The notes beneath the pieces are model-generated. The model was not told the DNA's origin. It did no database searches and saw nothing but the letters and a program-made list of their open reading frames with translations. This document shows, one piece after another, positions 3,915 through 34,268 of a stretch of 51,486 nucleotides of DNA; position 1 is the stretch's first letter, and the number at the start of each line of letters is the position of its first letter. Source of the stretch: Gammaproteobacteria bacterium (GTDB lineage: Bacteria > Pseudomonadota > Gammaproteobacteria > S012-40); contig JAOUJM010000007.1 in the NCBI GenBank assembly GCA_029883265.1, forward strand, positions 1 through 51,486, written 5' to 3'. The position numbers were made by a program, and so were the translations under genes.

Positions 3915-5141
3915 ATGAGTGATAGCAGCCGTGAAATTCACAGTTTGCGCCTTGTTCGTGTGCCTATTTTTTCAAATAAAAATACGGTTAGTGCCTATGC
4001 TTTAAAATTTATTAAAGGACACTATTCAGAACAAAATGGCTTGGATGAAAAAACGGATCTCACGCCATCAGTATTTAAAAAAATTAATGAACAAACCTAT
4101 CCTAAACTTTTTGCCGATACCAAACTTTGGATGCCATTCAGTCGTTATCTGGGCAAAAATGCTCGCTCCTTGCCACTCAATGGCCGTCAACTAATTATCG
4201 AGCTATTACCCGACACACCAAGTGACCGGGAGACTGTTGATCAGGTTACCGAGTTGTCGCGTCTTGGATATCAAATCGCAGCGCCAGGGAAATGGTTTAT
4301 TGATAACTCTAACTCAATTGCCGTATTGGCAAAAATAGCGGTGCTAAATTATGAAGAGATAGTCGAAGATAATATGCTTGCTGCGAGAATTGCAGTGGTT
4401 TCAAGTAAACAGCTGTTGCGTCATGTCAACGATGAAGCAGCGTTTCAATTATTTCAATCTAGTCAATTAACATCGTATACGGGAAGTTTCTATTTGCATC
4501 CGCCGCTACAAGATGCGGAAAGTTTGCCAAAAGAAAAATTACATCGGGTTCAATTATTGGCAAAAATACAAAACCCAAGCGTTGACTTTATTGAAGTGCG
4601 CCAAGCACTCAGTCAGGACCAATCCATTACTAACAGTTTGCTCGAATACATAAACTCTCCTGTGTTCAAGTTGGAGTCGCAGGTTTCGTCTACTCAGCAG
4701 GCGTTAGGATTGTTGGGTTTGAATGTACTGAAACAATGGCTAATGGTTGCTATTGTGGGGGAAATGGTTACCGGAAACCAATATGAACCTTTACGTGTTG
4801 CTTTTATTCGAGCGCGTATGTGTGAATTAATTGCACGTAAGATGGGTTCGAAAAAATCCGGTCGTTATTTTTTAGTGGGGCTACTCTCGGGTTTAGAAAT
4901 GCTATTGGCAGTGCCGACGGAAAAAGCGATTGAATTAATGGGGCTCTCCGACAAAATGAAAGGTTTTCTATTGGATTATGAAGGGGTCATTGGTTCAACC
5001 TTAGGCAGTGTGATTGCATTCGAACAAGGCGACTGGGAGAACGCCAAACATCAAAAAGTAAGCGATGCTACCATGCAAAAGGCTTATCTCAATGCGATCG
5101 TATGGTCGAAAGCAGTTATTGAGCAAATAGAGAAGTCGTGA
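3915..5141 (+). CDS. HDOD protein with degenerate EAL-like N-terminal half
   Basis: 408 residues with the same architecture as the next gene: an EAL-sized N-terminal region (about 1-200) and a C-terminal HDOD domain (about 210-400; from KLHRVQLLAKIQNPSVDFIEV through STQQALGLLGLNVLKQW). The N-terminal half aligns by eye with the neighbour but has lost EAL residues: YALKF replaces YELLYR, IELLPD replaces LEILED, and SFYLHPP replaces GYFLAKP. It probably neither hydrolyses nor binds c-di-GMP in the usual way. Its TGA overlaps the ATG of the next gene, so the two are cotranscribed and may interact. Domain calls are by motif; the signal sensed is unknown. Confidence 0.8.
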   Translation: MSDSSREIHSLRLVRVPIFSNKNTVSAYALKFIKGHYSEQNGLDEKTDLTPSVFKKINEQTYPKLFADTKLWMPFSRYLGKNARSLPLNGRQLIIELLPDTPSDRETVDQVTELSRLGYQIAAPGKWFIDNSNSIAVLAKIAVLNYEEIVEDNMLAARIAVVSSKQLLRHVNDEAAFQLFQSSQLTSYTGSFYLHPPLQDAESLPKEKLHRVQLLAKIQNPSVDFIEVRQALSQDQSITNSLLEYINSPVFKLESQVSSTQQALGLLGLNVLKQWLMVAIVGEMVTGNQYEPLRVAFIRARMCELIARKMGSKKSGRYFLVGLLSGLEMLLAVPTEKAIELMGLSDKMKGFLLDYEGVIGSTLGSVIAFEQGDWENAKHQKVSDATMQKAYLNAIVWSKAVIEQIEKS

Positions 5142-6391
5142 TGTCAAGTCGAAAGAAGAAGTCTGCCTCATCCGACAAAGAAAAATATAATAGCTATGTT
5201 GCTCGTCAGCCGATTTTTGATAGAGAGCTAAAAGTCACTGGCTACGAATTGTTATATCGCACAGGAGATAATAGCAACACCGCTGGTGTTGTCGATGGTG
5301 ATTATGCAACCAGCCAAGTGATGTTGAACTCGTTCATGGAGTTGGATATGACCAAGTACCTGGCTGATACCAAAGGTTTCGTTAATATTACACAATCTTT
5401 TTTGGATGGACAGTTTCCCATTCCATTGCCGAAATCAAAAGTTGTGCTCGAAATATTGGAAGATGTTGAGCCAACGTTAAAAGTAATTCACGCCGTCGAA
5501 GATTATGTTAATCAAGGTTTTGAATTCGCATTAGACGATTTTGTTTTTAATGAAAAATACCACTCACTCTTACGACTTGTGAAGTATGTCAAACTCGATG
5601 TGCAGGCATTGGGTGAACAAGGTTTGCGTCACCAGTTGGCGAAACTGGAACTTTATAATGTAAAACTGATTGCTGAAAAAGTTGAAACCCAGGGTGAACT
5701 TGATATGTGTATGGCCTTGGGTTTTGAATATTTCCAAGGATATTTTCTGGCTAAACCTAACTTGGTGAAAGGGCGAAAACTACCACCCAACAAGGTTCCC
5801 GTTTTACGCTTATTGTCGCGTCTGCAAGACCCTGAAGTTGAATTTGAGGAACTGGACGATTTAGTGCGTCAGGATGCGGCGCTAAGCTATAAATTATTGC
5901 GTTATGCAAACTCTGCTGGTAGTGGCGCGCAAGAAGAAGTCGAATCGGTGCAACATGCCTTAATGATGTTAGGTTTGCAAACCTTGCGTCGTTGGGTGTT
6001 GCTAATTGTGTTGGCGGGGCTCAATGAGAAATCAGATGAATTACTACGAACCGCGTTGTTTCGCGCAAAAATGTGTGAATATTTAGCTAAGTTAAAAAAT
6101 ATCGAACATGAAGATGAATTTTTTACGGTCGGTTTGTTTTCGACACTCGACGCAATGATGGATTTATCAATGAAAGAAATTCTGGAAGCATTACCTCTAG
6201 CCAAAACGGCTAAAAAAGCCTTATTAAAATACGAAGGTGAATTGGGTGAAGTCCTAAGTTGTGTGATTGCCTATGAACACGGTCAATGGGACAAAGTGAG
6301 TTTTAAAAATTTGAAAGTGCGACATATTACCCGCGCATACCTCAAAGCCAGTGCTTGGGCCGATAAATCCTTAGGCTCTATCTCAAGCTAG
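5141..6391 (+). CDS. EAL-HDOD signalling protein (YuxH/CdgJ type)
   Basis: 416 residues: EAL domain (about 15-205) then HDOD domain (about 210-400). Unlike its upstream partner it keeps most EAL catalytic positions: YELLYR (E of the ExLxR motif), NIT (Asn), LEILED (Glu), ALDDF (Asp pair), VKLD (Lys), AEKVET (Glu) and FQGYFLAKP (Gln). c-di-GMP phosphodiesterase activity is therefore possible, though not certain, since some members of this architecture only bind. HDOD domains are scaffold-like relatives of HD domains. A GTG at 5138 also lies in frame, but the ATG at 5141 is preferred. Convergent with the cytochrome gene at 6401. Confidence 0.87.
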   Translation: MSSRKKKSASSDKEKYNSYVARQPIFDRELKVTGYELLYRTGDNSNTAGVVDGDYATSQVMLNSFMELDMTKYLADTKGFVNITQSFLDGQFPIPLPKSKVVLEILEDVEPTLKVIHAVEDYVNQGFEFALDDFVFNEKYHSLLRLVKYVKLDVQALGEQGLRHQLAKLELYNVKLIAEKVETQGELDMCMALGFEYFQGYFLAKPNLVKGRKLPPNKVPVLRLLSRLQDPEVEFEELDDLVRQDAALSYKLLRYANSAGSGAQEEVESVQHALMMLGLQTLRRWVLLIVLAGLNEKSDELLRTALFRAKMCEYLAKLKNIEHEDEFFTVGLFSTLDAMMDLSMKEILEALPLAKTAKKALLKYEGELGEVLSCVIAYEHGQWDKVSFKNLKVRHITRAYLKASAWADKSLGSISS

Positions 6392-10741: not shown

Positions 10742-11236
10742 CTAGGCAGGTTCGGCTGTTTCTTTGTTGGCTTTGTCTGAAGGTAATTGTTTGGAAAACT
10801 CAATAATTTCTTGCAGTTCTTTTGATGTTGCGAGGATTTTTTGTTTTTCCTCTTCAGTCTTGGCAACATTGCGTTCGATGCGTGAGATTGCTTCACAGAA
10901 AGACTCTTCGGTCCAAACATCAAGTTGCTTGGCGTCGTCGAAGTAATCATCTACAAATTGCTGGGCAAATTGTCTGGCTGGAATATCCTCACCGGCTTCG
11001 TACCGTTGAATCCATTCATTGAGTATGCAAATGTCAATGGTGTCTGAAAGACGAAAAACTTCGGTTACAACTTCACGCCAATCACTTGACTGAGTTTGAA
11101 AAACTGATTGTAAATTCAGTTTTTGCATATTGTCGCGTTTCTCATCTGGTAAATGCCCAATGATATCGAGAACAAGGTTTTCAAAGAAAACTATTGCTGG
11201 CTTGTCCTTGTATCGAGGGTGCTCCAGGATGTCCAT
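10742..11236 (-). CDS. cytosolic protein of unknown function
   Basis: 164 residues, acidic and helical, no signal peptide or membrane segment. I do not recognise the family. It begins MDILEHPRYKDKPAIVFFENLVLDIIGHLP and has a charged C-terminal helix (about 120-158) that could coil. The start is set by an AAGGAG Shine-Dalgarno about 5 bases before the ATG at 11236; a TTG at 11251 would include that SD in the coding region and is rejected. It sits downstream of rpoH but is separated by a terminator, so it is probably transcribed alone. Confidence 0.7.
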   Translation of the reverse strand: MDILEHPRYKDKPAIVFFENLVLDIIGHLPDEKRDNMQKLNLQSVFQTQSSDWREVVTEVFRLSDTIDICILNEWIQRYEAGEDIPARQFAQQFVDDYFDDAKQLDVWTEESFCEAISRIERNVAKTEEEKQKILATSKELQEIIEFSKQLPSDKANKETAEPA

Positions 11237-11301
11237 TACCGCTCCTTCCAAAACACGTAAGTTGTATCTAGTGCATGGTAGAAAGCAGTATTTATGCCAG
11301 T

Positions 11302-11353: not shown

Positions 11354-12214
11354 TTATGCGACCAGTTGTTGCCGAAGTTTTGCTATCGCATTTTGTTCCA
11401 GTTGGCGAATACGTTCGGCCGATACCGAATATTTCTCCGCCAATTCCTGCAAGGTGGCTTTGTCTTCACTGAGCCAGCGTTGCTGTAAAATGTCCTGGCT
11501 ACGCTCGTCTAGTAAGTCAAGCGCATTACTTAGTTGGTCACTGTGATGATCCTCACTATCGGATTTTTCCCAGATACTCGCTGGATCCGCTGCTTGCGCT
11601 TGTAAAAAGGCGGAAGGTGCTGGCGCGGTGTAGTGGTCGTCATCATCTTCGTTGCCGTAACCATCAAAAGAGGCATCTTGTTGGCTTAAGCGCATTTCCA
11701 TTTCACGTACTTGCGCGCCACTTACGCCGAGTTTGTCGGCGACGGCATCGACTTCCGCTTGGTTAAACCAACCTAGGCGCTTCTTGTTCTTGCGCAAGTT
11801 AAAGAATAATTTGCGCTGTGCTTTGGTGGTGGCGACTTTAACAATTTTCCAGTTGCGCAGTATGAATTCATGCATTTCGGCACGTATCCAATGCACGGCG
11901 AAAGAAATGAGGCGTACCCCTTGCTCGGGATCAAAACGTTTCACTGCTTTCATCAGGCCTATATTGCCTTCCTGGATTAGATCCGCTTGAGCTAAACCAT
12001 AGCCGCTATAACCACGGGCGATTTGCACCACAAAGCGCAGGTGAGACAGGATCAGCTGGCGTGCAGCATTTAGGTCATCATTTAACTTCAGGCGATATGC
12101 GAGGTCTTTTTCCTCGTCTGCGCTAAGCACGGGAAAGCTATTAGCGCTTTGTATATACGCCTCAAGACTACCTTGCGGGTTCGCAATTGTTGCCGGAAGT
12201 AATTGATTGCTCAA
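11354..12214 (-). CDS. rpoH: heat-shock sigma factor RpoH (sigma-32)
   Basis: 286 residues, standard length. Region 2 includes [43 protein letters not shown] and [22 protein letters not shown]; the RpoH box [16 protein letters not shown] follows; region 4 ends with [27 protein letters not shown] (HTH). It directs core RNA polymerase to heat-shock promoters. The start is TTG (12212-12214), with SD GGAG 8 bases upstream; the nearby ATG GAG is out of frame and quickly stopped. It lies next to ftsXEY, as in many gammaproteobacteria. A CIRCE operator covers its predicted promoter. Confidence 0.96.
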
Positions 12215-12248
12215 TGTTTTATCTCCATGTTCAGGGTTATTTGGGTTA

Positions 12249-12278
12249 ATTTTAGCACTCTAATGTCACGAGTGCCAA
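12249..12278 (-). promoter_or_regulatory. predicted sigma-70 promoter of rpoH
   Basis: On the minus strand, TTGGCA (12278-12273), 18-base spacer, TAAAAT (12254-12249). Predicted transcription start near 12242, about 28 bases before the TTG start codon. Confidence 0.6.
12252..12278. promoter_or_regulatory. CIRCE element (HrcA operator) upstream of rpoH
   Basis: TTAGCACTC (12252-12260), 9-base spacer, GAGTGCCAA (12270-12278). The consensus CIRCE is TTAGCACTC-N9-GAGTGCTAA, so 17 of 18 arm positions match, with exact spacing. It spans the -35 to -10 interval of the predicted rpoH promoter, where HrcA binding would block polymerase. Confidence 0.88.
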
Positions 12279-12352
12279 TCTTACTATCGGTTTGAGCCCT
12301 TTTTTTATTTAGAGTTCACTTATATTGCAAAAGTTTTAGTAATTTGAGTCGC

Positions 12353-13393
12353 TTAAAGCGAGAATTTGGTGATGATATTGCGAGCAGTAACCCAGGCACC
12401 AAATAGACCCAGACTCATTCCAATCGCTAATACTATGCTGATTTCAGACATATTAAGGCCAATTAGGCTGCGTTCATTATTATAGAGACTGAGTAGTCGC
12501 TGCACGGAGGGGTTAATCAAAATCACGGCGAATCCAATAATAACAATCGCACAAATACCCCCAAGAAAGCCATACATCAAACCGGAATAAATAAAAGGCC
12601 GGCTAACATACGCATTGGTCGCACCGACGAGTTTGCTGATACGAATTTCTTCGCTATAGGCCTGGCTCATCAAGCGGATGGTATTTCCAATAATTAATAA
12701 AACACCCATAGCTAGCAGTGCGGAAATCAAATTGGAGCTGCTTTTAAGTATGGATACAATTGCATAAAGTCGTTGCAGCCACAGCATGTCGAGTTGTGCT
12801 AAATGCACTTCCGGCCAGCCTTGGAATTCGGCCTGTAACTTTTCCATATTAGAAAAATCCTGTTGATCGAGTTTGGGGTATACCTCGATGACATAGGGGA
12901 GTGGATTATGCGGTAATTTCAGAAAATCCGGATTGAGGTCGGAATAGTCTTGAAATTCAGCCAATGCTTGTTCGGGGTCGATGACTTTAACGCTATCAAT
13001 GTCTTCACGTTTGACTAGACGATTTTCCAGGCGTTTAACCCAGGTGTTGGTTTTAGTCTCCATGAGGAATAAGGTGATACTGGGACGGTCTTCCACGCCT
13101 TTGCTTAACATCAAGGTGTTTTTGATTAAGACATGTAAACCGAGTGGTAGTGACAAGGCGATGCCAATAACCAGTATGGTCATAATGCTTGCTGATTTAC
13201 TATGGAATACACGCTGCAATGCATATTTAATGGCTTGATGATGCTGCTGAAAATATAAGGCCAGGCTGTTATGTCGCTGCACGCCTTTTTGATTGACGGA
13301 TTTCTGACGAGTGTTTTGATCGGTTTCGTCGGTTTTTTGTTTTGGGTTGCTGCTTATTGGTGTAGCGCCACGACGGCGGTGATGGCGTTTCAT
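12353..13393 (-). CDS. ftsX: cell division protein FtsX
   Basis: 346-residue membrane subunit of the FtsEX complex, which couples ATP hydrolysis by FtsE at the septum to activation of peptidoglycan hydrolases. A basic cytosolic N-terminus (about 1-65) precedes TM1 (about 70-90). A periplasmic domain (about 95-205) is followed by three more TM segments (about 215-235, 265-290, 315-335). The segment EEIRISKLVGATNAYVSRPFIYSG is a family hallmark. The ATG overlaps the ftsE stop by 4 bases, indicating translational coupling. Third gene of ftsY-ftsE-ftsX. Confidence 0.95.
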   Translation of the reverse strand: MKRHHRRRGATPISSNPKQKTDETDQNTRQKSVNQKGVQRHNSLALYFQQHHQAIKYALQRVFHSKSASIMTILVIGIALSLPLGLHVLIKNTLMLSKGVEDRPSITLFLMETKTNTWVKRLENRLVKREDIDSVKVIDPEQALAEFQDYSDLNPDFLKLPHNPLPYVIEVYPKLDQQDFSNMEKLQAEFQGWPEVHLAQLDMLWLQRLYAIVSILKSSSNLISALLAMGVLLIIGNTIRLMSQAYSEEIRISKLVGATNAYVSRPFIYSGLMYGFLGGICAIVIIGFAVILINPSVQRLLSLYNNERSLIGLNMSEISIVLAIGMSLGLFGAWVTARNIITKFSL

Positions 13394-26479: not shown

Positions 26480-26829
26480 GGATGTGCTTCCTCGTGTTAT
26501 TGCTAGTATTTTGTGTCGCTTGCTTATTGCCTACAAAATACAAAGCTTGGTTTAGACTACATCGACTTTTCGCTGCTCAAACTTTATGAGAAGTTCGCTA
26601 AGTCATTATTTTTTAGATAAATGCAAGTGTAGCATGGCAATGCTTGTAGGTTAAAAATTGCTACTGTAATTGAGTAAATATTGCTCAATCTGGCTACCAC
26701 CATCTACGTTTAAATCTTGCTCAAAAGTAACCGAATATTTTATAGGGTCTTATCCCCAGGTCAATATTGAAACCACGTTTACATGCCCCCATTTAGGAAG
26801 CAAGTAGATATTCATTGAGGACACCCATC
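26480..26829. other. intergenic region between regulator and clpB
   Basis: 350 bases with no supported ORF. It holds the sigma-32 promoter of clpB at its right end. The left part should contain the promoter of the two-component pair; no clear match was found. Confidence 0.6.
26767..26795 (+). promoter_or_regulatory. sigma-32 (heat-shock) promoter of clpB
   Basis: TTGAAA (26767-26772), 14-base spacer, CCCCATTTA (26787-26795). This matches the RpoH consensus (CTTGAAA, 13-15 bases, CCCCATNT) closely. Predicted start near 26801, giving a leader of about 29 bases. Confidence 0.9.
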
Positions 26830-29403
26830 ATGAGAATGGACAAATTAACCAGTAAGTTTCAAATGGCCTTAGGTGACGCCCAGAGTTTAGCTGTAGGTCG
26901 CGATCACCAATTTATAGAGCCAGTGCATGTTATGAGCGCCTTGCTGGACCAGGACGGCGGTAGTGTTGCCCATTTGCTGGCACAAGCTGCAGTGAATGTA
27001 AATCAGTTGCGCTCTGATTGCTTAGCAGAATTGAGTCGCTTGCCGCGGGTTGAGGGTAATGCCGGTGATGTGCATATTTCCAATGACACCGGACGTTTAT
27101 TAAATGTCTGCGATAAACTAGCGCAGCAACGCAAAGATGCATACATCTCAAGTGAGCTGTTTGTACTAGCAGCCTTGGCTGATAAAGGCACGCTTAGCGA
27201 ATTATTGCGTAAAGCGGGCGCGGCCAAAGGCTCGGTAGAAAAAGCCATTGATGAATTGCGTGGTGGACAAACTGTGGAAAACCCCGATGCTGAAGAGCAA
27301 CGCCGCGCGCTGGAAAAATACACCATCGACTTAACTGAACGGGCGGAGCAAGGCAAGCTCGATCCCGTGATTGGTCGTGATGACGAAATTCGCCGCACGA
27401 TTCAAGTTTTGCAACGTCGCACTAAAAATAATCCTGTGTTGATTGGTGAGCCAGGCGTGGGTAAAACCGCGATCGTCGAAGGTTTAGCGCAACGCATTAT
27501 TAATGGTGAAGTGCCTGAAGGCCTAAAAAACAAACGTCTTTTATCTTTGGATATGGGTTCTTTAATTGCGGGTGCAAAATTTCGTGGTGAGTTTGAAGAA
27601 CGTTTAAAAGCAGTGCTTAAAGATTTGTCAAAACAAGAAGGACAGATCATTCTATTCATCGATGAATTACACACCATGGTCGGCGCAGGTAAAGCCGAGG
27701 GAGCCATGGATGCGGGTAATATGTTGAAACCTGCATTGGCGCGTGGTGAACTACATTGTGTTGGTGCCACCACGTTGGACGAGTATCGCCAGTTTATTGA
27801 AAAAGACGCAGCCTTGGAACGGCGTTTTCAAAAAGTGTTAGTCGATGAGCCTAGTGTGGAAGATACGATTGCAATTCTTCGTGGTTTGAAAGAAAAATAC
27901 GAAGTGCATCACGGTGTGGATATTACCGACCCAGCAATTGTTGCTGCAGCGACCTTATCGCATCGTTATATTAGCGATCGTCAACTACCGGATAAAGCCA
28001 TCGATTTGGTTGACGAAGCGGCCAGTCGAATTCGTATGGAAATCGATTCAAAGCCGGAAGACATGGACCGTTTGGATCGTCGTCTGATTCAATTGAAAAT
28101 TGAACGTGAGGCATTGAAAAAAGAAACCGATGATGCATCGCGTAAACGCCTGGATATGCTACAAACAGAAATCCAAAGTTTGGAACGCCAATATTCTGAT
28201 TTAGAAGAAGTGTGGAAAGCGGAAAAAGCAGCACTTCATGGTTCGCAACTAGTGAAAGAAGAAATGGATCGCGCGCGTCAGGAATTGGAAACGGCGCGAC
28301 GTGCAGGCAATTTGGCGCGTATGTCCGAATTGCAATACGGCAAAATTCCTGAATTGGAAAAACAATTAGAGCAGGCAACGGCTGCGGAAACGAAAGAAAC
28401 TCAGTTATTGCGTAATCGAGTGAGTGATGAGGAAATTGCCGAAGTGGTTTCCAAATGGACGGGTATTCCCATTAGTAAAATGCTCGAAGGTGAAAAAGAA
28501 AAACTACTGCGCATGGAAGATGAATTAAGCCAGCGGGTGGTTGGGCAAGCCGAGGCCGTGCATGTGGTGTCGAATGCGATTCGCCGTTCTCGTGCTGGTT
28601 TATCCGATCCAAATCGACCCAATGGTTCGTTTTTATTTTTAGGGCCGACAGGTGTGGGGAAAACAGAATTGACCAAAGCTTTGGCTGATTTTCTATTTGA
28701 TACGCAAGAAGCCATGGTGCGCATCGATATGTCGGAATTCATGGAAAAACATTCGGTGGCGCGTTTGATCGGTGCGCCTCCAGGTTATGTTGGTTATGAA
28801 GAAGGTGGTTATTTAACAGAAGCGGTGCGACGCAAGCCCTATTCAGTTATTTTGTTAGACGAAGTGGAAAAAGCGCATCCTGATGTGTTTAATATTTTGC
28901 TGCAAGTGTTGGACGATGGGCGTTTGACCGATGGTCACGGACGCACGGTTGATTTTCGAAATACTGTGATTGTCATGACATCAAATCTTGGTTCGCAAAT
29001 TATTCAAGATAAGAGTGATGAAGCGCGTTATGATGAAATGAAAACAGCGGTTATGGATGTCGTCGCGAGTCATTTCCGGCCAGAATTTATCAATCGAATT
29101 GATGATGTGGTGGTGTTTCATGCCTTGGGTCGTGAACAACTACATGCCATTGCCAAAATTCAAATTACTTATTTGCAAGCACGTTTGGCTGAGCGTGAAA
29201 TGCAAATTGAATTAACTGACGAGGCCTTGGATTTGATTTGTGAAGCGGGTTATGACCCTGTTTACGGCGCACGTCCGCTAAAACGTGCGATTCAAAGCGA
29301 AATCGAAAACCCCTTAGCTCAAGCTATTCTCAGTGGTCAATTCGTGCCAGGCGATACCATTAAGGTAAACCGAGAGGGATCACAGCTGAAGTTCACAAAG
29401 TAA
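26830..29403 (+). CDS. clpB: ATP-dependent disaggregase ClpB
   Basis: 857 residues, the usual ClpB length. N-terminal Clp_N domain ([31 protein letters not shown]), first AAA+ with [13 protein letters not shown] and [13 protein letters not shown], a long middle coiled coil (about 405-525) that distinguishes ClpB from ClpA/C, second AAA+ with [15 protein letters not shown], and a C-terminal D2-small domain. Hexameric; with DnaK it pulls proteins out of aggregates. ATG at 26830 with SD GAGG; upstream TTG at 26815 rejected. Driven by a sigma-32 promoter. Confidence 0.97.
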
Positions 29404-33212: not shown

Positions 33213-33540
33213 GTTCTAACCATAAATAAAAGTCTAAATCCTGTAGCAATTCCATGTCTTCATGGGAACTGAGTAATTCCATATCTTCCCAACCACTGGC
33301 GTCAGGCTGTACCTTGGATTCGCTTTGAAACCATAGATTGAAGCTTAGCATTACCACGCCTATAGTGGCAGCCACGCCCAAGGCTGGACGCCAATAATAA
33401 GTTCGACGCCTTTGTTTGTCCACGGCATGCATACGTGCCTGTGCGAGTTGCTGGCGTATGTCTGTATTAACCGCTTGGCTACTCTGATCTAGTAATTGTT
33501 TAGTTTTCTTTAACAATGCATCATTATTCGTTTGGCTCAT
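33187..33540 (-). CDS. single-pass membrane protein, candidate anti-sigma factor
   Basis: 117 residues: cytosolic N-terminus (about 1-50, DALLKKTKQLLDQSSQAVNTDIRQQLAQARMHAV), one TM helix (about 53-70), then a short acidic periplasmic part (WEDMELLSSHEDMELLQDLDFYLWLE). The topology and its position right after an ECF sigma gene (ATG overlapping the sigma stop) suggest an anti-sigma or DUF3619-like protein. No zinc (HxxxCxxC) anti-sigma motif is present. Confidence 0.6.
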   Translation of the reverse strand: MSQTNNDALLKKTKQLLDQSSQAVNTDIRQQLAQARMHAVDKQRRRTYYWRPALGVAATIGVVMLSFNLWFQSESKVQPDASGWEDMELLSSHEDMELLQDLDFYLWLEHEQAKETS

Positions 33541-34178
33541 GGTAGATATCCCTCCATTTGCTCTTTTATTTTGTTCATGGCGCGTGATAAGTGGGTTTTA
33601 ACACTGCCTTCACTACAACCCAAAACCTTGGCGGTTTCCTCAACGCTCAACCCTTCCCAGCTACGCAGCATAAAGGCTTGCTGTTGGCGTAGGGGTAATT
33701 GATGCAATACGATCTCTAGGTGTTGAAAAGCTCGTTGATGTTCCAGTAGCTGGCTAGGATCGTTATTGCTTAAATCGGGTGCGTCGAATTCAAAATCATT
33801 GTCCTGCTCCATATCTTTAACGCCTGGTAACCAACGAATGATTTGGTTGCGGATTTTACTGCGACGATGCCAGTCGAAAATTTTATTTTGAAGGATTCGA
33901 TAGAATAATGGCGGCCATTCTTCTTGAGGATTTGCGGCATATTTATCACAAAGTTTTACCATGGCATCTTGAACAATATCCAATGCATCGTCCTGATTGC
34001 CCGTCGCAATATGGGCCATTTTAAAAGCCTTGAGTTCGATTTCTTTGAGAAATTTGGACAGCGCTTGGTTTTGTATAGTTTCTTGATTTGAAACCAACGA
34101 CTTAGCATCCTTTGTCTGATGTTGGTAAGGACCAAGTGTGCCGTAAATGAGTGGATTTTGCCAGTATATAAAGTTCAT
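33537..34178 (-). CDS. ECF-type RNA polymerase sigma factor
   Basis: 213 residues from ATG 34178. Region 2 (about 45-110: LKAFKMAHIATGNQDDALDIVQDAMVKLCDKY, LFYRILQNKIFDWHRR) and region 4 (about 150-205: LPLRQQQAFMLRSWEGLSVEETAKVLGCSEGSVKTHLSRAMNKIKE) are clear. The true start is uncertain: no SD precedes 34178, a GTG at 34205 is in frame, and a start closer to region 2 is possible. First gene of an overlapping operon with a membrane protein, a small acidic exported protein, a DUF3106 protein and a barrel protein. Confidence 0.88.
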   Translation of the reverse strand: MNFIYWQNPLIYGTLGPYQHQTKDAKSLVSNQETIQNQALSKFLKEIELKAFKMAHIATGNQDDALDIVQDAMVKLCDKYAANPQEEWPPLFYRILQNKIFDWHRRSKIRNQIIRWLPGVKDMEQDNDFEFDAPDLSNNDPSQLLEHQRAFQHLEIVLHQLPLRQQQAFMLRSWEGLSVEETAKVLGCSEGSVKTHLSRAMNKIKEQMEGYLP

Positions 34179-34268
34179 AAAGCTAATAACGCAGTTTACA
34201 CCCACGCGTTGACAATAGTAGCCATGAACAATTTGTGGTTCTATAAAAATAGAAACTTAGCTCGGTTT

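Follow-up and report, generated by a model that had tools for sequence, protein, structure and literature searches.

Textbook accounts of the heat-shock response draw on E. coli, in which no HrcA stands above sigma-32. The window (the whole stretch of 51,486 nt analysed here) carries a CIRCE-like palindrome between ftsX and rpoH, raising the question of whether the repressor HrcA controls transcription of the sigma-32 gene in this organism, and how widely such an arrangement might be found among its relatives.

A Predicted CIRCE Operator at the rpoH Promoter

On the + strand, positions 12252–12278 read TTAGCACTC-TAATGTCAC-GAGTGCCAA, with one mismatch to the CIRCE consensus TTAGCACTC-N9-GAGTGCTAA. 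Direct motif matching confirmed the preliminary description on this point, which had placed a CIRCE, matching at 17 of 18 arm positions and with exact spacing, near rpoH. It is the only match with three or fewer mismatches in the 51 kb of the window (dinucleotide shuffles gave 0.02), and by a uniform-base estimate about 0.004 sites with at most one mismatch would be expected in the entire 5.27 Mb genome. The features of the locus, and of the clpB locus discussed below, are collected in Table 1.

Table 1. Positions of genes, promoter elements and the predicted operator in the window
Feature	Position	Strand	Basis or remark
rpoH (sigma-32), 286 aa, TTG start	11354..12214	-	TIGR02392 above cut-off
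Ribosome-binding site GGAG	12223..12226	-	Direct reading
Extended -10, TG-C-TAAAAT	12249..12257	-	TAA inside CIRCE, last AAT outside
CIRCE operator (HrcA site, predicted)	12252..12278	.	17/18 arm positions, N9 spacer; kept upstream of rpoH in relatives
-35-like hexamer TTGGCA, within CIRCE arm	12273..12278	-	Sequence reading and promoter scan
Candidate sigma-E promoter TGAACTC-N16-TCAAA	12291..12318	-	Consensus match only; predicted start just before CIRCE
Second, overlapping candidate sigma-E promoter AAAACTT-N17-TCTAA	12309..12337	-	Consensus match only
ftsX, gene upstream of rpoH	12353..13393	-	Order ftsY-ftsE-ftsX-rpoH
Sigma-32-type promoter ATTGAAA-N14-CCCCATTT before clpB	26766..26794	+	Consensus match, best in window
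clpB	26833..29403	+	TIGR03346 above cut-off

The gene identified as rpoH matches its family model at the equivalog level (NCBIfam TIGR02392, 396.7 bits, cut-off 323.1), and its product groups with those of gammaproteobacterial genomes. The gap between CIRCE and rpoH is 37 bp. Control of ftsX was ruled out, as the site lies about 75 bp beyond the ftsX stop codon and points at rpoH. No Rfam family matched the rpoH leader, and on that basis an RNA thermometer, or any other RNA of a known family, was rejected there. Directly downstream of rpoH is an ORF of 169 aa (10742–11251, - strand) without a Pfam match.

A sigma-70-type promoter is interleaved with the palindrome: on the - strand, TTGGCA (12278–12273) is followed after an 18-bp spacer by TAAAAT (12254–12249), with a TG one base ahead of the -10. 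The operator had been described as sitting between these hexamers; the hexamers and their spacing stand, but the -35 and the first half of the -10 fall within the arms of the operator, so it is not between them. This was the only sigma-70-type match (10/12, with the TG) in a promoter scan of 12180–12480. Shuffled sequences yield 1.1 such matches per region, which puts the match alone at chance level, and the call of a vegetative promoter rests on its conservation (see below).

HrcA and the Other CIRCE Sites of the Genome

The search for hrcA that had been proposed returned one HrcA in the 5.27-Mb draft assembly (98.9% complete), an equivalog-level match to TIGR00331 (329.2 bits, cut-off 197.2) that also matches PF01628 (1.8e-65). 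A check for further CIRCE sites had been proposed as well: just three with up to three mismatches occur in the 5.27 Mb, namely those before groES (perfect), rpoH (one mismatch) and hrcA (three mismatches). About 1.8 sites with three mismatches are expected genome-wide by chance, but the hrcA site counts because it lies just before hrcA and has a promoter layout, TTGGCA-N18-TAnnAT, that is the same as that of rpoH.

Conservation of the rpoH Operator among Relatives

If the palindrome is an HrcA operator, it might be expected upstream of rpoH in related genomes, as the preliminary description had proposed to check. Loci were gathered from 30 related genomes (including that of the window) and 80 named genome records; 108 had enough upstream sequence, and CIRCE was scored in the roughly 260 bp before rpoH, allowing up to three mismatches. 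The site was present at 68 of the 108 loci, nearly all of them beta- or gammaproteobacterial, and was perfect at 42. Mismatches over the loci fell into two distinct humps, and none of 2180 shuffled sequences came within three mismatches. The CIRCE-bearing loci include Burkholderiales, Rhodocyclaceae, Nitrosomonas, Xanthomonadales (Dyella, Rhodanobacter), Methylocaldum and many uncultured gammaproteobacteria, while the Vibrio, Shewanella, Aeromonas, Haemophilus and enterobacterial genomes examined have neither CIRCE at rpoH nor hrcA.

The presence of the site tracks that of hrcA, as determined by profile search: 60 genomes have both, 35 have neither, eight have CIRCE only and five have hrcA only (Fisher test, 1.9e-15, with kinship ignored). 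A kinship-corrected pair test, in which about two of six usable pairs agreed and none opposed, was underpowered and not significant. The eight CIRCE-bearing genomes in which no hrcA was detected come from draft or MAG assemblies, and several of these are incomplete. Of the three outcomes that the preliminary description had named as refuting, the two examined here, a genome lacking hrcA and a site not conserved in relatives, did not occur. Conversely, no recognisable rpoH CIRCE was seen in the hrcA-bearing L072, L079, L125 and G025, and weak variants were seen in L059 and L088; of three genomes added later (G015, G018 and G025), none has an rpoH CIRCE and G025 has hrcA. The operator, hrcA, the promoter-like elements, their conservation and their co-occurrence are directly supported observations, and from them an HrcA operator across the rpoH promoter would seem to be common to most related proteobacteria that retain HrcA.

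These data also bear on whether the palindrome could be a chance or relic sequence with no function. Its one departure from the consensus would fit such an origin, but the minute number of sites expected genome-wide, the presence of hrcA, and the retention of both position and sequence in relatives make it very improbable, and a chance palindrome was dropped on the basis of the genome-wide expectation and the conservation.

Several relatives show variations on the site. Seven (L018, L020, L021, L022, L023, L025 and L042) have two tandem CIRCE-like sites before rpoH, about 29–32 bp apart, compared to one in the window; these might possibly allow cooperative binding of HrcA. In five Xanthomonadaceae-like genomes (L033, L059, L071, L083 and L088) the rpoH arms drift to GCAGTC/GACTGC, and the mostly symmetric nature of the changes suggests that HrcA and its operator changed together. 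Pseudoalteromonas luteoviolacea (L068) has a perfect CIRCE at 1920 before rpoH and a single, very divergent HrcA match (46.6 bits); the other sampled members of its group are without CIRCE and hrcA.

Candidate Sigma-E Promoters and Their Overlap with CIRCE

The 68 rpoH sites were aligned on CIRCE and the conservation of their flanks was read. Immediately after the right arm, (A/T)AT completes a -10 hexamer, and AT occurs at this position in 50 of the 68 rpoH sites; among 14 hrcA sites, oriented towards hrcA and counted by hand, 2 have it. On the other side, GGAACTT is found 16–10 bp before the left arm, and the first three bases of the CIRCE spacer favour T-A/C-A. Flank and arm together spell GGAACTT-N16-TC(T)(A/C)A, the form of sigma-E promoter known from P3 of E. 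coli rpoH, with a 16-bp spacer, whose -10 (TC(T/C)AA-like) is built from the CIRCE arm and the first spacer bases. GAAC stands precisely at this offset in 33 of the 68 and one base off in eight more, compared to 0–2 at unrelated offsets, and was not seen at hrcA CIRCE sites. At 41 of the 68 loci a sigma-E -35 is placed so that its -10 falls within CIRCE; at the remaining 27 it was not found.

In the window itself GGAACTT is absent at the interleaved offset, and an interleaved sigma-E promoter was ruled out there. Two overlapping candidates lie 13–59 bp upstream of CIRCE instead (Table 1), each scoring 10/12 against GGAACTT-N15..17-TCNNA in the 138-bp gap; shuffled sequences score 10 or more in about 2% of 300-bp regions, and such matches do not by themselves show use. 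The same displaced layout is present in L040 and L105, and many relatives have sigma-E-like promoters at rpoH, whether CIRCE is there or not. The genome encodes RpoE (TIGR02939, 332.6 bits, cut-off 236.15). The window also carries a gene for an ECF-type sigma factor (33537–34205, - strand) with a weak match to the RpoE model.

A broader reading is that in most CIRCE-bearing beta- and gammaproteobacterial relatives one operator covers both the sigma-E and the vegetative promoters of rpoH, the window being a rearranged case with its sigma-E promoter just upstream. This would extend occlusion of the vegetative promoter rather than contradict it, and we hold it to be an evenly balanced proposition: the anchored GGAACTT profile and the position of GAAC argue for it, set against the loci that lack the -35, the absence of the interleaved form in the window, and the status of the window's own sigma-E candidates as consensus matches only.

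Predicted Regulation of rpoH and the Sigma-32 Regulon

We consider it likely that 12252–12278 functions as an HrcA operator through which rpoH transcription is shut down by covering of the promoter, and HrcA probably represses rpoH in this organism. In the absence of stress, spare GroEL would keep HrcA active, and HrcA would bind the operator. Maintenance of HrcA activity by GroEL is established for HrcA elsewhere. Because the -35 and half of the -10 of the vegetative rpoH promoter lie in the operator arms, HrcA bound there would keep RNA polymerase off this promoter, and transcripts from the upstream sigma-E-like candidates would start at the operator or run into it. On heat shock, titration of GroEL would inactivate HrcA, releasing rpoH, groESL and hrcA together, and sigma-32 would then drive groESL, grpE(-dnaK) and clpB. 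Rising GroEL would restore HrcA and close the loop. Binding, repression, the link to GroEL and the kinetics are inferred, the first three from what is known of HrcA in other bacteria.

The preliminary description had noted a sigma-32 promoter at clpB and predicted a two-tier cascade, from HrcA to RpoH and on to ClpB and others. The clpB promoter was found as described, and grpE (directly after hrcA) and groES also have sigma-32-like promoters: CTTGCAA-N14-CCCCATAT and CTTGACT-N12/13-CCCCTATT, respectively, the latter adjoining CIRCE. The elements of the predicted cascade are therefore present in sequence, with groESL at both tiers. Release from HrcA and activation by sigma-32 would together form a coherent feed-forward loop at groESL, and grpE-dnaK and clpB would be reached mainly via sigma-32.

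The further proposal that HrcA is the master repressor of the sigma-32 regulon goes too far. Repression of groESL by HrcA would also be direct, sigma-E-like promoters lie upstream of rpoH as well and a sigma-E input is likely, and sigma-32 is also controlled after transcription. In E. coli, translation, binding by chaperones and proteolysis (FtsH) largely set its level, and if sigma-32 is governed in the same way here, transcriptional repression may be of modest effect. It is possible, if somewhat doubtful, that HrcA only trims basal rpoH transcription, the operator being a fine-tuner and not a switch, with heat induction running via sigma-E promoters and the translation and stability of sigma-32. 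The largely post-transcriptional control in E. coli is consistent with this, as are the sigma-E-like promoters at rpoH in many relatives, the two candidates in the window, and the enterobacteria and vibrios searched, which manage without hrcA and CIRCE. Against it, the operator is near-perfect across beta- and gammaproteobacterial groups and, in most relatives that carry CIRCE, it covers the sigma-E -10, so that HrcA would gate sigma-E initiation too.

Comparison with Known Systems

The rpoH region of E. coli has the order ftsYEX-rpoH and a sigma-E-dependent promoter, P3 (GAACTT-N16-TCTGA). The window has the same gene order and candidate sigma-E promoters upstream, and the enterobacterial loci examined share the motif; the enterobacterial genomes searched differ in lacking hrcA and a CIRCE at rpoH. 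A 2003 survey by Permina and Gelfand (doi 10.1159/000077248) reportedly covers HrcA/CIRCE regulons in beta-, gamma- and epsilon-proteobacteria, and may already list rpoH sites; the regulator, operator and bacterial classes are those of the present case.

The preliminary description had regarded rpoH as an unusual location for CIRCE. It is instead the usual state in the hrcA-bearing beta- and gammaproteobacterial loci examined, and a CIRCE upstream of rpoH was predicted computationally in Geobacter sulfurreducens in 2004 (PMC545781, Table 8), so the site in the window belongs to a known arrangement. As in the genome of the window, groESL and hrcA of that species also carry CIRCE. Its rpoH site is listed at -51 from the rpoH start (the gap being 37 bp in the window), is perfect, and belongs to a deltaproteobacterium; the passages on it describe neither overlap with promoter hexamers nor a sigma-E element. 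The adjoining sigma-32-type promoter and CIRCE at groESL resemble the joint control by RpoH and HrcA of groESL in Agrobacterium tumefaciens, as cited in PMC11764788. By its title, the Agrobacterium work concerns differential and independent roles of RpoH and HrcA, whereas in the present genome rpoH itself would be a further target of HrcA. In the literature searched, no report was found on the breadth of the rpoH CIRCE arrangement or on its overlap with sigma-E promoters, which is not proof of novelty.

If HrcA acts on rpoH in most beta- and gammaproteobacteria that have hrcA, then control by repressor and control by sigma factor would be layers within a single circuit rather than alternatives, and E. 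coli would have a simplified derivative of this wiring; judging from the loci compared, it is the E. coli system, which lacks HrcA, that appears to be exceptional. The fullest version of this view could as readily prove wrong as right: in most beta- and gammaproteobacteria that kept HrcA, CIRCE would overlap the sigma-E -10 and both vegetative hexamers, HrcA would veto both inputs, the E. coli lineage would have lost HrcA and CIRCE while keeping the sigma-E promoter, and in the window that promoter would have been displaced upstream. If true, the overlap of sigma-E promoter and CIRCE would mean that envelope stress, chaperonin supply and sigma-32 are connected through a single segment of about 45 bp.

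Elsewhere in the window, two adjacent and mutually similar ORFs (3915–6391, + strand) appear by eye, from their translations, to resemble EAL/HDOD-type signalling proteins.
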